DNA of 64,000 nucleotides from Spiribacter sp. 1M189 (lineage in GTDB: Bacteria > Pseudomonadota > Gammaproteobacteria > Nitrococcales > Nitrococcaceae): assembly GCF_040838345.1 (NCBI RefSeq), contig NZ_JBAKFF010000001.1:1426001-1490000 (forward strand), written 5' to 3'. Shown piece after piece: positions 35,884-59,595 of this stretch. Numbering within the stretch: position 1 is the stretch's first letter; each line of letters starts with the position of its first letter. Position numbers and translations under genes: made by a program. A model generated the notes under the pieces. It ran no database searches and was not told the DNA's origin. It saw nothing but the letters and a program-made list of their open reading frames with translations.

Positions 35884-37119
<1,236 letters not shown>

Positions 37120-37143: not shown

Positions 37144-37509
<366 letters not shown>

Positions 37510-37568: not shown

Positions 37569-37629
37569 GCCGTTGCATCGCAACATTTTCAGGCGGCCAC
37601 CGATCGATGGCTGAGCGCATACGCCCGCC

Positions 37630-47264: not shown

Positions 47265-48968
47265 CTAGAAAAGGAAATAACGCTGTGCCAGGGGAACGAC
47301 CTCAGCCGGCTCACAGGTGAGCAGCTCGCCGTCCGCCCTTACCTCGTAGGTCTGCGCATCCACGCTGACCTCCGGCTGCCAGTCATTGAGCTTCATATCC
47401 TGCTTGCCCACGCTCCGGCAGCCGGCGACCGCGACGGCCCGCTTGGCCAGTCCCAGGCGCTCGGCAACGCCCGCCTCGACCGCGGCCCGGGAACAGAAGG
47501 TCACCGACGTCCGACCCACTGCACCGCCATAGGCGCCGAACATGCCCCGGTAGTGCACCGGCTGCGGCGTTGGAATCGATGCATTGGGATCGCCCATGGG
47601 CGCCGCCGCAATCAGTCCGCCCTTGACGATGACGCCGGGTTTGGCGCCGAAGAAGGCCGGCTTCCAGAGCACCAGATCGGCCAGCTTGCCCTCCTCGACG
47701 GAGCCCACCTCGTGCGAGATGCCATGGGCGATGGCGGGGTTGATCGTGTACTTGGCCACAAAGCGCCGGGCCCGGACGTTGTCGTTGCGATCGTTATCCT
47801 CGCCGAGGGGGCCGAACTGCACCTTCATCTTGTGTGCGGTCTGCCAGGTCCGGGAGATGACTTCGCCAACCCGGCCCATCGCCTGGGAATCGGATGCGAT
47901 CATCGAGAACGCCCCGCGATCGTGGAAAATATCCTCGGCGGCAATCGTCTCGCGGCGAATACGCGACTCGGCGAACGCCACGTCCTCGGGAATCGCCGGA
48001 TCGAGGTGATGGCAGACCATGAGCATGTCGAGATGCTCGTCGATGGTGTTGCGGGTGTAGGGGCGCGTGGGGTTGGTGGATGACGGCAGGACATTGCTCT
48101 CGCCGCAGGCCCGGATGATGTCCGGGGCGTGCCCACCACCCGCACCCTCGGTGTGATAGGTGTGGATCGTCCGTCCCTTGAACGCGGCGATGGTATCCTC
48201 GACAAATCCCGACTCGTTCAACGTGTCGGTATGGATGGCCACCTGGATATCATGCTCGTCGGCCACCGTGAGCGCGTTGTCGATCGCCGCGGGCGTGGTT
48301 CCCCAATCCTCGTGGAGCTTGAGCCCCATGGCGCCGGCCGCGATCTGCTCATGCAGGGAATCCGGCAGACTCGCATTGCCCTTGCCCATGAACCCCAGGT
48401 TCATTGGAAAGGCATCCGCCGCCTCCAGCATTCGCTCGATATTCCAGACCCCGGGTGTGCAGGTGGTGGCGTTAGTGCCCGTGGCGGGACCGGTGCCGCC
48501 CCCCAGCATGGTGGTCACTCCGGACATCAGTGCCTCTTCGATCTGCTGCGGACAGATGAAGTGGATATGGGCGTCGATGCCACCGGCGGTCACGATGCTG
48601 CCCTCGGCCGCGAGCACCTCGGTCCCCGGCCCGACCACGATATCCACACCCGGCTGTGTATCCGGATTACCCGCCTTGCCAATGCCGGCGATCCGGCCGT
48701 TGCGAATGCCGATATCGGCCTTGATCACACCGCGATAATCCAGGATCACCGCATTGGTGATCACCAGATCCATTGCGGCATGACCGGCGGCCTGGCTCTG
48801 GCCCATGCCATCGCGGATGACCTTGCCGCCGCCGAATTTCACCTCATCGCCATAGCGCGTGTGGTCCCGCTCCACCTCAATGATCAGTTCGGTGTCCCCC
48901 AGCCGTACCCGATCACCCTGGGTGGGGCCATACATCTCGGCGTAGGCGTCGCGTGGAATCGATGTCAT
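47265..48968 (-). CDS. ureC: Urease alpha subunit
   Basis: The catalytic subunit that hydrolyses urea to ammonia and carbamate. It is 567 residues, exactly the standard length. The nickel-bridging carbamylated lysine is Lys217 in GLKLHEDWG, and the catalytic His320 is in MVCHHLDP. Nickel histidines are in DAHIHFICP and [11 protein letters not shown], and the aspartate is in [11 protein letters not shown]. Residue numbers match the Klebsiella enzyme. The start overlaps ureB by 4 nt. It is the third structural gene in ureA-ureB-ureC. Confidence 0.98.
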
Positions 48969-57469: not shown

Positions 57470-58423
57470 TCACTGCAATAGCTGACTGAGTGCCTGCTGA
57501 CCCTGAACAAGGGGCCTCGCCGGGTCCTGCGTCCACTCGGTCATCGAGCCATCGTAGAGCGCCACGTCCTCGAGCCCGCCCACCTCGGAGAGGGCAAACC
57601 AGGCGGTGGCTGCCCAGTGACCCGTGTTGCAGAAAGACACCACGGGGCCGTTCTGCTCGATGCCGGCCACCTCGATCAGGCGATTCACTTCATCGGTGTC
57701 GATGAAAGTTGCCGTGTCCTGCTCTACCAGTAACCGCTCTTCCAGGCTGGCCGCGCCGGGGATGGTGCCCGCGGCACGCGCTGCCGGGTGCTTCGCCTGA
57801 CCGGCATACTGAGCCGCCGGACGGGCATCAACGAGCTGACTGCCACTCGAATCGGCATTGGCCACGTCGGCGGTATCGGCCAGCAGCTCGGGTTGCAACT
57901 CCGCGTTGAAGGTCGCCGGGGTCACCGATGCCTCGCCAGTGGCGACCTCACCACCGGCATCGACCCAGGCACGGTAACCGCCGTTGAGAATCGCGACGTC
58001 CTCATGCCCAAGGTATTTCAGGGTCCAGTAAACCCGGGCCGCGCTGCCGAAGTCCGTCGACCCGACACCCGCCGGCACGACGACAACCGTGTCGTCGTTG
58101 TCCACGCCGAGTGAGCCAATCAATGCCTCGAGCCGATCCACCGGAGGCAGCTTGCCGGGGACAGCTCCCTCGGCCACCCGCCAACCGGCACCCGTATAAC
58201 TGGCGTAAGCCGCACCCGGAATATGTCCGGCTTCGAATCCTGCGGCATCCGTTCCGTCAATCGCCGAACGCACATCCAGCACGGCGACATCGGGATTCTC
58301 GAGATGCTCGGAAAGCCATTCCGGCTCAACCAGCGGTCCGACCTCGGGCCCGGCGTGTGCAGTGGTGGCGGCCAGCATACCCGCGAAGCCAGCGGCAATA
58401 ATGGAATGGTGCGTGACGGACAT
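57470..58423 (-). CDS. Periplasmic thiosulfate/3-mercaptopyruvate sulfurtransferase (two rhodanese domains)
   Basis: A 317-residue protein with a signal peptide (HSIIAAGFAGMLAATTAHA) and two rhodanese domains. The first has VAVLDVRSAID, and EVATGEASV follows in the linker. The second includes DARPAAQYAGQ, and its active-site loop FCNTGHWAATAWFALSEVG carries the catalytic cysteine. Such enzymes move sulfane sulfur from thiosulfate or mercaptopyruvate to an acceptor. Being next to the YeeE-type importer, it probably processes the same substrate outside the inner membrane. The first domain lacks a clear active cysteine, as is usual. Confidence 0.88.
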   Translation of the reverse strand: MSVTHHSIIAAGFAGMLAATTAHAGPEVGPLVEPEWLSEHLENPDVAVLDVRSAIDGTDAAGFEAGHIPGAAYASYTGAGWRVAEGAVPGKLPPVDRLEALIGSLGVDNDDTVVVVPAGVGSTDFGSAARVYWTLKYLGHEDVAILNGGYRAWVDAGGEVATGEASVTPATFNAELQPELLADTADVANADSSGSQLVDARPAAQYAGQAKHPAARAAGTIPGAASLEERLLVEQDTATFIDTDEVNRLIEVAGIEQNGPVVSFCNTGHWAATAWFALSEVGGLEDVALYDGSMTEWTQDPARPLVQGQQALSQLLQ

Positions 58424-58517
58424 GACGACACTCCGGTCAAGAATTTGTAAGTTGGCCAGCGTATCGGATTTTTTAGCAGCTTTAAGGACAGATTGGATTT
58501 ATAGATAGAATATTGGG

Positions 58518-58671
58518 TTATAACCGGATTTAGTCCCCGTGTTCATAGGTGGTCATCCGCAATGGCTATTCCTCACCCGAAAGTTATTACTTACTATTAT
58601 CGACAACGTCGGGCCAGGTGCCCGATACAGACTCTCCTCCTCTTGGCCGGCCACAGCGTCGGCTTTTTTTT
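58518..58671 (+). ncRNA. Candidate small regulatory RNA ending at an orphan terminator
   Basis: An intrinsic terminator at 58646-58671 faces right, yet no plus-strand gene lies upstream (both neighbours are on the minus strand). A second hairpin TCGGGC-CAGGT-GCCCGA lies at 58609-58625. Between the two is the unpaired, CU-rich ACTCTCCTCCTCTT (about 58629-58644), complementary to Shine-Dalgarno sequences. TAGAAT at 58506-58511 could be the -10 element, giving about 154 nt; the -35 is weak. The layout (hairpin, CU-rich seed, terminator with T8) is that of Hfq-type sRNAs. The start is a guess. A 39-codon frame at 58562-58681 overlaps it. Confidence 0.4.
58646..58671 (+). terminator. Intrinsic terminator, plus strand
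   Basis: GCCGGC-CACAGC-GTCGGC forms a 6-bp stem (one G-T pair) followed directly by eight T residues at 58664-58671. It is the end of the sRNA candidate. On the minus strand no T-run follows the stem, so it does not serve rdgC. Confidence 0.75.
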
Positions 58672-58701
58672 GCCCGAATGACGGGCGACGTGCCGGCTAA
58701 C

Positions 58702-59595
58702 CTACTCGAACCACGCGATCAGCCGGGGAAGGAATCGTGTCAACTCGCCGGTCATGATGGCGAAATCCGCGTCAAACCGCTCGGCTGGAGTCTCTGCCTC
58801 CCGGTCGTCGGCGTCGCTTTGGACTACGTCAGTGAACCTGAGCCGCTTAATCGACAGGTCGCTATCCAGCACGGCACTGATACGGCCGTCCCAGGTCAAC
58901 GCCAGACGGCGTACGCGCTTGCCGGCCTTGATGTGACCACGAATCTCGCCGCTGCGCAGATCCTGGCGCTTACAGCGAATCTCGGCCCCCTCGGTCTTCG
59001 GATCCTCGAAGACGGCCTCTTCCCCGGGTTCAAGGTCTGACGGAAAGCGGTCATGCGCCAGCCATTCGGTCATCACCTGATGGGGTGCGCTATCAGTCTG
59101 CAGGGGTCGGATAGGCAGACTGCCCAGCAGGGCCCGCAGATCGTCGGTCAGCAACTCTGCCTCGCGCCAGGTCGCAGCGTCGACGATCAGCCAGCGGCCC
59201 TGCAGATCCAGGTAGGCATAAGCGCGCTTGCTGCGGGTGAAGGCTCTCGGCAACAGATCCAGCGTTACCTCTTCCTTCAACCGGGCCTTCTCACGGCGTC
59301 CAAGCGGTCTTCCCATCGACTCCTCACGCTCGGCAATGCGCGCGTCGACGTTTTCGCGAACCACCGCCGGAGGCAACACCCGGGTCTCGGTCTGCAGACA
59401 GATCATCAACCGCTGTCCTGATGCGTGCACGAGCTGCTCGCCGCCGGGCTCCAGTGGTGGGACCCAGCCGCGGGATTCGGGATCATGACCGCCGACCGGA
59501 TGAAAGATACCGGCGCTGAGTCGGTCCTCGAGCTGTGCGGCGTCAAGACTGAAGGCATCGGCCAGTTGATAGACGCAGAGATTGCGAAACCACAT
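58702..59595 (-). CDS. rdgC: Recombination-associated protein RdgC
   Basis: A ring-shaped DNA-binding protein that inhibits RecA. At 297 residues it is normal. N-terminal MWFRNLCVYQLADAFSLDAAQLEDRL, GWVPPLE and GQRLMICLQTETRVLPPAVVRE are all family signatures. ELTRFLPRLIAWF at the C-terminus is also diagnostic. It lies 41 nt after purK on the same strand. Confidence 0.95.
   Translation of the reverse strand: MWFRNLCVYQLADAFSLDAAQLEDRLSAGIFHPVGGHDPESRGWVPPLEPGGEQLVHASGQRLMICLQTETRVLPPAVVRENVDARIAEREESMGRPLGRREKARLKEEVTLDLLPRAFTRSKRAYAYLDLQGRWLIVDAATWREAELLTDDLRALLGSLPIRPLQTDSAPHQVMTEWLAHDRFPSDLEPGEEAVFEDPKTEGAEIRCKRQDLRSGEIRGHIKAGKRVRRLALTWDGRISAVLDSDLSIKRLRFTDVVQSDADDREAETPAERFDADFAIMTGELTRFLPRLIAWFE

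Follow-up and report, generated by a model that had tools for sequence, protein, structure and literature searches.

The window analyzed here, a stretch of 64,000 nucleotides, comprises contig 1 bases 1426001-1490000 of a 1.95-Mb Spiribacter genome. Toward its right-hand end, an intergenic region separates a rhodanese gene from rdgC; both neighbors lie on the minus strand, and no plus-strand gene is evident upstream, as a sequence-only reading of this DNA had pointed out. The features of the region, in window positions, are as follows (type A is one of two sibling classes described below):

57470-58423 (-): rhodanese-type sulfurtransferase gene (Pfam PF00581)
58424-58701 (no strand): intergenic region with the sRNA gene, flanked by the rhodanese gene and rdgC
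58530-58549 (+): degenerate palindrome copy, a possible regulator site (alignment of 15 type A copies)
58551-58572 (+): conserved upstream element GGTCATCC-N5-GGCTATTCC, about -53 to -32, a probable activator or promoter element
58595-58600 (+): predicted -10 element TATTAT (a TAnn[AC]T hexamer stands at the expected distance in 13/15 type A copies)
58605-58671 (+): predicted sRNA of about 67 nt, type A sibling (comparison among copies)
58609-58625 (+): 5' hairpin TCGGGCCAGGTGCCCGA, its position kept and its stem sequence changing across copies
58632-58646 (+): CU-rich anti-Shine-Dalgarno seed CTCTCCTCCTCTTGG, unpaired in the fold except for its last bases
58645-58663 (+): terminator stem-loop (terminator scan, alignment, and covariation counts)
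58664-58671 (+): T8 tract (at least 8 T in 31/31 aligned copies)
58702-59595 (-): rdgC (Pfam PF04381)

The hairpin, CU tract, terminator, and T8 tract were all present where the sequence-only reading had placed them, and the AT-richness it had remarked on was borne out: the GC content of positions 58440-58605 is 0.39 versus 0.65 for the window, the lowest value when set against all 1277 equal-length stretches sampled. In the flagged stretch taken as a single sequence, the folding z-score was 0.24, a scan for the sigma-70 consensus gave no match, and one terminator-like site was found versus 0.5 expected. By single-sequence measures alone the locus is within chance; comparison across genomes is decisive.

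That comparison strongly supports a plus-strand sRNA with an anti-Shine-Dalgarno seed, as had been proposed, but not the accompanying length of 140 to 155 nt. Measured from the -10 element at the conserved distance, the predicted transcript at the window locus is 65 to 68 nt long, and 66 to 72 nt were predicted for the 13/15 type A copies in which an automated search found a -10 element (its choice in the window copy was TACTAT, which overlaps TATTAT at 58595-58600). The long transcript was rejected because a conserved -10 element lies near 58595-58600 and the conservation farther upstream resembles operator DNA. We read the AT-rich DNA upstream of 58605 as the promoter and control region of the sRNA gene, and positions 58605-58671 (+) very probably encode a small regulatory RNA ~67 nt in length. 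Loss of the hairpin, CU tract, and terminator in relatives, which would have counted against such a gene, was looked for as well; all three are kept at the type A loci in 12/14 genus genomes, whereas G008 (74% complete) and G011 yielded sibling type B but no type A copy.

An Rfam scan of the window sRNA gave no family at gathering score. The sole plus-strand match in a permissive scan was RF02278 (Betaproteobacteria toxic small RNA), which likewise has a CUCCUCC tract followed by a T-rich terminator; with 12.1 bits versus a gathering score of 50 (E value, 6.7), membership was rejected. Elsewhere in the window, positions 48533-48819 (+) match the 5' ureB sRNA family above threshold (108.8 bits; gathering score, 40), which may be conserved ureB coding sequence read on the opposite strand.

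A sibling family under two types of promoter

A DNA search matched the element in 17/40 genomes, our own included; matches beyond one near relative cover the last ~45 bases of the element and mostly number two per genome. With a covariance model built from 31 aligned copies, and a strong copy defined as one of at least 50 bits, 34 strong copies were found in 17/23 genomes of the family: 26 copies in 14/14 Spiribacter genomes, at one or two per genome, up to four in Arhodomonas (G015), and two each in G017 and G018. The 31 aligned copies are among these 34; two of the remaining three, those of G018 and Arhodomonas (G015) but not that of G001, were also read. The unaligned copy of G018 keeps the layout with a changed seed end (CTCTCCTCCTTCTGG; CTTCTGG), and that of Arhodomonas (G015) keeps it with an extra C and T7. 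An order-wide search of 54 genomes added one match above 30 bits, L060 in G024 (40 bits, poor T tract), a possible distant relative that was left out of the counts. Two CU-rich sequences with T8 and other seeds near base 1500 (L061 in G027, minus strand, with an upstream box TGCGCAATGCAACA, and L062 in G042, plus strand), likewise possible distant relatives, were also left out.

The exact CU-tract-plus-terminator pattern occurred in 2/369 genomes of the class, our own and Arhodomonas (G015), in both of which the reversed-pattern control gave 0 hits. In a species-genome collection it occurred in 23 stretches. Spiribacter, Arhodomonas, or related MAGs account for 16 of these; the other 7 (four Clostridia, Aminicenantes, Legionellaceae, and Bacteroidetes) had no GC hairpin by eye and were taken as chance or coding.

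Seed and terminator are present in all 31 aligned copies. The stretch CTCTCCTCCTCTTGGCCG, the closing CGGC, and at least 8 T are kept in every one, with a variable loop, and the seed core reads CUCUCCUCCUC(C)UUGG throughout, the sole seed exception being one extra C in one aligned Arhodomonas copy. The covariation score and the percentage paired of the alignment exceeded those of 500/500 shuffles; both-side changes occur in 2/7 pairs of the terminator stem, a number equaled by 377/500 shuffles. Neighboring genes of the element vary among genomes. The family shares with Hfq-bound sRNAs an intergenic position, a Rho-independent terminator with a U-run, and a promoter of its own (judged by conservation only), and hfq (PF17209) is present in 18/18 genomes searched, our own included. 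A scan of five related loci against Rfam gave nothing at gathering score.

The 31 copies comprise two types, A (15 copies, the window copy among them) and B (16 copies), which carry one common 3' module under unrelated promoters, so that different signals would feed one seed. In type A, the 5' hairpin folds in 15/15 copies, with stem sequence varying at a constant position, and beats letter shuffles (P < 0.05) in 12/15; for L017 and L028, the hairpin stretch was chosen by hand to contain the stem. The upstream element takes the form GGTCATCC-N5-GGCT[AC]TTCC across copies. Searched as TCATCCN5GGCTMTTCC with at most one mismatch, it stood at the type A promoter in 12/14 genus genomes (reversed control, 0), which are exactly the 12 that have a type A copy; the search found 19 places in all, these 12 and another 7, each with one mismatch, away from the sRNA.

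Farther upstream, ~66 bases from the predicted start, several relatives carry the palindrome TTGTGCC-N5-GGCACAA, which suggests a dimeric regulator. A search of 14 genomes for TTGTGCN7GCACAA (at most one mismatch) gave 47 places versus 30 for the reversed control, 4 of them at the sRNA, and the copy in our own genome is too degenerate for this search to find; on these results, no regulon was assigned to the palindrome. Outside the genus, 3/3 type A copies read adjoin an opposite-strand gene for an EEP-type nuclease, recognized from translations. In G018, a PhaR-like box, TTGCGCGCTGCAACA, lies among the promoter sequences of the type A copy (L017), so the signals received by types A and B may be divided differently outside Spiribacter.

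Type B RNAs have a predicted length of 57 to 60 nt, or 62 nt in one copy where the automated search chose another -10 element, and the fold of the type B copy in our own genome has no 5' hairpin. The motif TGCN3GCAAC is present in 15/16 type B copies, and in 14/15 its first base lies 5 bases downstream of that of the -10 element; the remaining copy has TTGCN3GCAA further upstream. In Arhodomonas, L070 holds a tandem type B pair about 170 bases apart (4158 and 4325), the second with a box TTGCGGCGCAA that lies upstream of the -10 element and does not overlap it.

The type B box resembles the motif TG[N]TGC[N]3GCAA, which is bound by PhbF, the PHB repressor of Herbaspirillum (PMC3206438); in Spiribacter it is a putative site for PhaR, whose gene (PF07879, PF05233) is present in our own genome. 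Pfam also confirms the phasin (PF09361), thiolase, and GlnK (PF00543) there, and phaB and phaC were identified from translations. The sequence TGTTGCN3GCA occurs 27 times in our own genome versus 5 times for its reversed control. Sites precede a phasin gene (two), phaA, phaB, and glnK, another lies at the type B sRNA, and about half of the 27 are within genes or elsewhere. PhaR is a sensor of PHB in other bacteria, and it probably represses sibling B. The site before glnK lies within the window:

37573-37583 (no strand): PhaR/PhbF-like box TTGCATCGCAA, upstream of glnK (37144-37482, -) and amtB (35884-37119, -)

This box belongs to the same motif class as that at the type B sRNA, and it lies close to a sequence that resembles a sigma-54 promoter. 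The box before glnK-amtB is possibly a direct link of PHB storage to nitrogen control; within the window, TGCN3GCAA is not enriched (8 found versus 10 expected). Elsewhere in the genome, two facing PhaR-like boxes 30 bases apart, with a type-B-like promoter TTATATTGCACTGCAACA, adjoin a possible mechanosensitive channel gene (L134/L135; G000:C1:835825-835866).

A complementary RNA in the PHB locus and candidate targets

When the 14 genus genomes were searched for the seed complement, the hits were the sRNA genes, scattered sites, and, in 13/14 genomes, a site that starts with CCAAGAGGAGGAG. In our own genome it belongs to a PHB-locus RNA at G000:C1:1262632-1262755, in the gene order phaC, ribokinase, PHB-locus RNA (+), phaB, phaR, phaA (-). 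A 14-nt perfect complement of the seed, GCCAAGAGGAGGAG, is invariant across the 13 aligned PHB-locus RNAs. The alignment further includes a downstream hairpin that shows some covariation, together with a GGGAGAC/GTCTCCC terminator followed by a T run, and the length is about 130 to 140 nt. A promoter of the form TTGCnn-N17-TAnnnT is present in 13/13 genomes. A PhaR-like box precedes it in 9/13, and our own genome's promoter has no clear one. Directly after the terminator in our own genome lies a PhaR-like box without an obvious promoter role (L209 2767-2778; G000:C1:1262766-1262777), and most of the 13 aligned relatives have a similar sequence there, GCTGCnnCGCAnCA. None of the codons ATG, GTG, and TTG occurs within 15 nt after the 13-nt match in 13/13 genomes (CTG does in one), and the RNA is apparently noncoding.

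A model of the PHB-locus RNA scored 84 to 131 bits in 13/14 genus genomes and gave weak matches (24 to 38 bits) in seven further genomes of the order, including G017 and G018, where the match sits between phaC and phaB; the model search did not find it in Arhodomonas (G015; four sRNA copies) or G008. The five other weak matches (L227 to L231, in G038, G030, G022, G026, and G024; 24 to 32 bits) have GGAGGAG in 4/5 cases and, by eye, a terminal hairpin with a T run in all. An Rfam scan of the PHB-locus RNA gave nothing at gathering score.

The longest contiguous pairing between sRNA and PHB-locus RNA is 14 to 17 nt with at most one G-U pair in the 13 Spiribacter genomes and 19 nt with two to three G-U pairs in G017 and G018; 0 to 2 of 200 shuffled PHB-locus RNAs reached the observed pairing score. 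This statistic was adopted after duplex energies had failed to separate real from shuffled RNAs (245/1000 shuffles for type A and 58/1000 for type B equaled the real RNA). The PHB-locus RNA matches of four order genomes where no strong sRNA match turned up pair with the window sRNA over 9 to 11 nt at best; in G024, the PHB-locus RNA match pairs over 15 nt with the weak sRNA candidate L060. It is possible that L061 and L062, from other families of the order, are lineage-specific partners of the PHB-locus RNA.

We regard a sponge as the most likely role of this RNA. The alternative that best withstands the evidence, though unlikely, is that the sibling sRNA is real and the PHB-locus RNA is a CsrA/RsmA decoy, a plain target, or an untranslated-region element, the match arising from a strong Shine-Dalgarno-like sequence in both. 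The complement does contain AGGAGGAG, which resembles both a Shine-Dalgarno sequence and CsrA sites, and four of the five order genomes with weak matches outside G017 and G018 have no strong sRNA match, with GGAGGAG kept in 4/5. Yet in 13/13 genomes the match does not stop at the Shine-Dalgarno core but also takes in GCCAA, the pairing partner of UUGGC in the sRNA; G017 and G018 keep the pairing through G-U pairs; and start codons are absent after the match, apart from the single CTG. CsrA decoys, moreover, usually carry many GGA motifs, which also speaks against this alternative.

Far less probable is that the element is a mere strong terminator with a CU-rich leader, for instance one that ends stray intergenic transcription, and that no trans-acting RNA exists. 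The short intergenic region, the varying neighbor genes, and the commonness of terminators would fit, but an 18-nt conserved seed-plus-stem with variable loops would then be unexpected, as would the dispersal of its copies, the fixed distance of their two promoter types, and the conservation of a complement at another place. Least credible is that the element has spread by copying as a mobile or repetitive, terminator-like sequence. Such an origin would account for dispersed copies with a common core and for the one Arhodomonas tandem pair (L027, L070). It would not account for only one or two strong copies per genus genome in two classes with their own promoters, for the finding that the same 12 genus genomes, and no others, have a type A copy and the type A upstream element at the sRNA, or for the nuclease gene beside all three type A copies read outside the genus.

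In a search for targets, the sequence GAGGAGGAG was found 2 to 10 bases before an ATG at 64 places in 13/14 genomes, versus 17 for the reversed control. Fifty rows of this list, with one place counted twice, were judged by eye; some lie within genes (phoH) or have no long frame after them, two are the sRNA reverse strand, and two were too short to judge. Recurrent candidates, identified by eye from translations, are an AcoR-like activator (5 genomes), prpC (4), a TRAP transporter (4, one of them seen outside these rows), and a second acetoacetyl-CoA-reductase-like gene (2). Close prpC orthologues have a GGAGGAG- or GGAGGGGGAG-type site in 7/10 cases, and four genomes have only a more distant prpC homologue. 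The site is absent, and long pairing missing, in G004, G008, and G011; the unbroken pairing is 9 nt in our own genome and in G010.

Nine start regions were tried in our own genome against 45 mechanically chosen background starts. For prpC, phaR, and phaA, the start region surpassed 45/45 of these in pairing with the seed; phaP, phaB, and the window's phaC showed no notable seed pairing (ranks 35, 24, and 35 of 45), and the starts of glnK, the rhodanese gene, and rdgC did not exceed all 45. We consider prpC (2-methylcitrate synthase), phaR, and phaA to be the best guesses among candidate targets.

Known systems and a possible circuit tied to carbon storage

The alpha-r8 RNAs, MmgR of Sinorhizobium meliloti and SisA to SisD of Caulobacter crescentus, are described as sRNAs of small size, associated with Hfq, that combine a weak hairpin with a single-stranded anti-Shine-Dalgarno core and a Rho-independent terminator and whose siblings have unrelated promoters; AniA/PhaR represses MmgR, which itself limits PHB (PMC12559287, PMC12542648, PMC8401924). 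The Spiribacter family resembles them in its hairpin (type A), single-stranded core, terminator, and several siblings. The alpha-r8 RNAs are, however, alphaproteobacterial and have the 10-nt core UUUCCUCCCU, whereas the Spiribacter core is CUCUCCUCCUCUUGG, and in most species an alpha-r8 copy lies beside an FGase gene. The window copy lies between the rhodanese gene and rdgC, and no N-formylglutamate amidohydrolase was recognized by eye among mechanically derived open reading frames within 1.5 kb at 13/30 loci. No alpha-r8 match appeared in the Rfam scans, which would bear on the question only if Rfam 15 includes an alpha-r8 model. Because the core differs (in 31/31 aligned copies, the 10-nt core being absent), membership was rejected, and the window sRNA is not filed with the alpha-r8 RNAs.

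The PHB-locus RNA has a counterpart in CrfA of Caulobacter, described as a noncoding RNA whose G/A-rich loop pairs with the common seed of sibling anti-Shine-Dalgarno sRNAs (PMC12559287). The PHB-locus RNA is likewise apparently noncoding, with a conserved complement of a common sibling seed; it differs in adjoining phaB and having a PhaR-like box in 9/13 genomes, whereas CrfA is reported there to be induced by carbon starvation (PMC12559287). In Neisseria, the siblings NmsRA and NmsRB act through anti-Shine-Dalgarno motifs on carbon-metabolism mRNAs, with predicted targets including PrpB, PrpC, and GltA, so that prpC is a proposed target there as here; the two are tandem genes with two anti-Shine-Dalgarno motifs and stringent-response control, and the portion of the account available mentions neither a PhaR link nor a sponge (PMC5362039). 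The copies described here are dispersed, with one CU seed each; L027 of Arhodomonas is the only tandem pair. An RNA-discovery paper describes a proX motif in Spiribacter; a literature search, with most subscription journals outside it, found no report of the Spiribacter sibling sRNAs or the PHB-locus RNA.

Our best reading is that the system works like SisA to SisD with CrfA in Caulobacter and like MmgR in Sinorhizobium, without detected homology. We consider it likely that anti-Shine-Dalgarno sibling sRNAs and a PHB-locus sponge RNA form a circuit tied to carbon storage by PhaR. The conserved family, the two promoter types, the boxes, and the complementarity are seen in the sequence. From the window locus, 58605-58671 (+) would be expressed as a trans-acting RNA of about 67 nt with a short 5' hairpin, the CUCUCCUCCUCUUGG seed, and a U8 terminator of the Hfq-bound kind, and siblings with different promoters would let different signals feed that seed. 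By pairing with GGAGG-type ribosome-binding sites, the seed would keep selected mRNAs from being translated, most likely those for carbon uptake, central carbon metabolism, or PHB metabolism. The PHB-locus RNA, with its perfect complement, would most likely act as the sponge, and PhaR, besides its probable repression of sibling B, may act on the sponge promoter. Transcription, Hfq binding, the translation block, sponging, and PhaR binding are what we infer for this circuit.

More tentatively, these RNAs could represent a storage-sensing circuit that arose outside the Alphaproteobacteria, convergent with alpha-r8 and CrfA, in which PhaR controls an anti-Shine-Dalgarno sRNA and a PHB-locus sponge while siblings such as the window copy add other signals; the PHB-locus RNA would then be an unnamed order-wide family whose partner sRNAs change by lineage. 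If the proposed circuit is right, translation control in halophilic Gammaproteobacteria would be coupled to PHB storage by two RNA families below every Rfam threshold, the sibling sRNAs and a probable sponge. Together they would provide a second case of sibling sRNAs with a sponge after that of Caulobacter (2025), without detected homology and with PhaR involved as it is for MmgR of Sinorhizobium. Repeated recruitment of anti-Shine-Dalgarno RNAs by carbon-storage sensing would thereby become testable, with the seed, the sponge, and the promoter box named.
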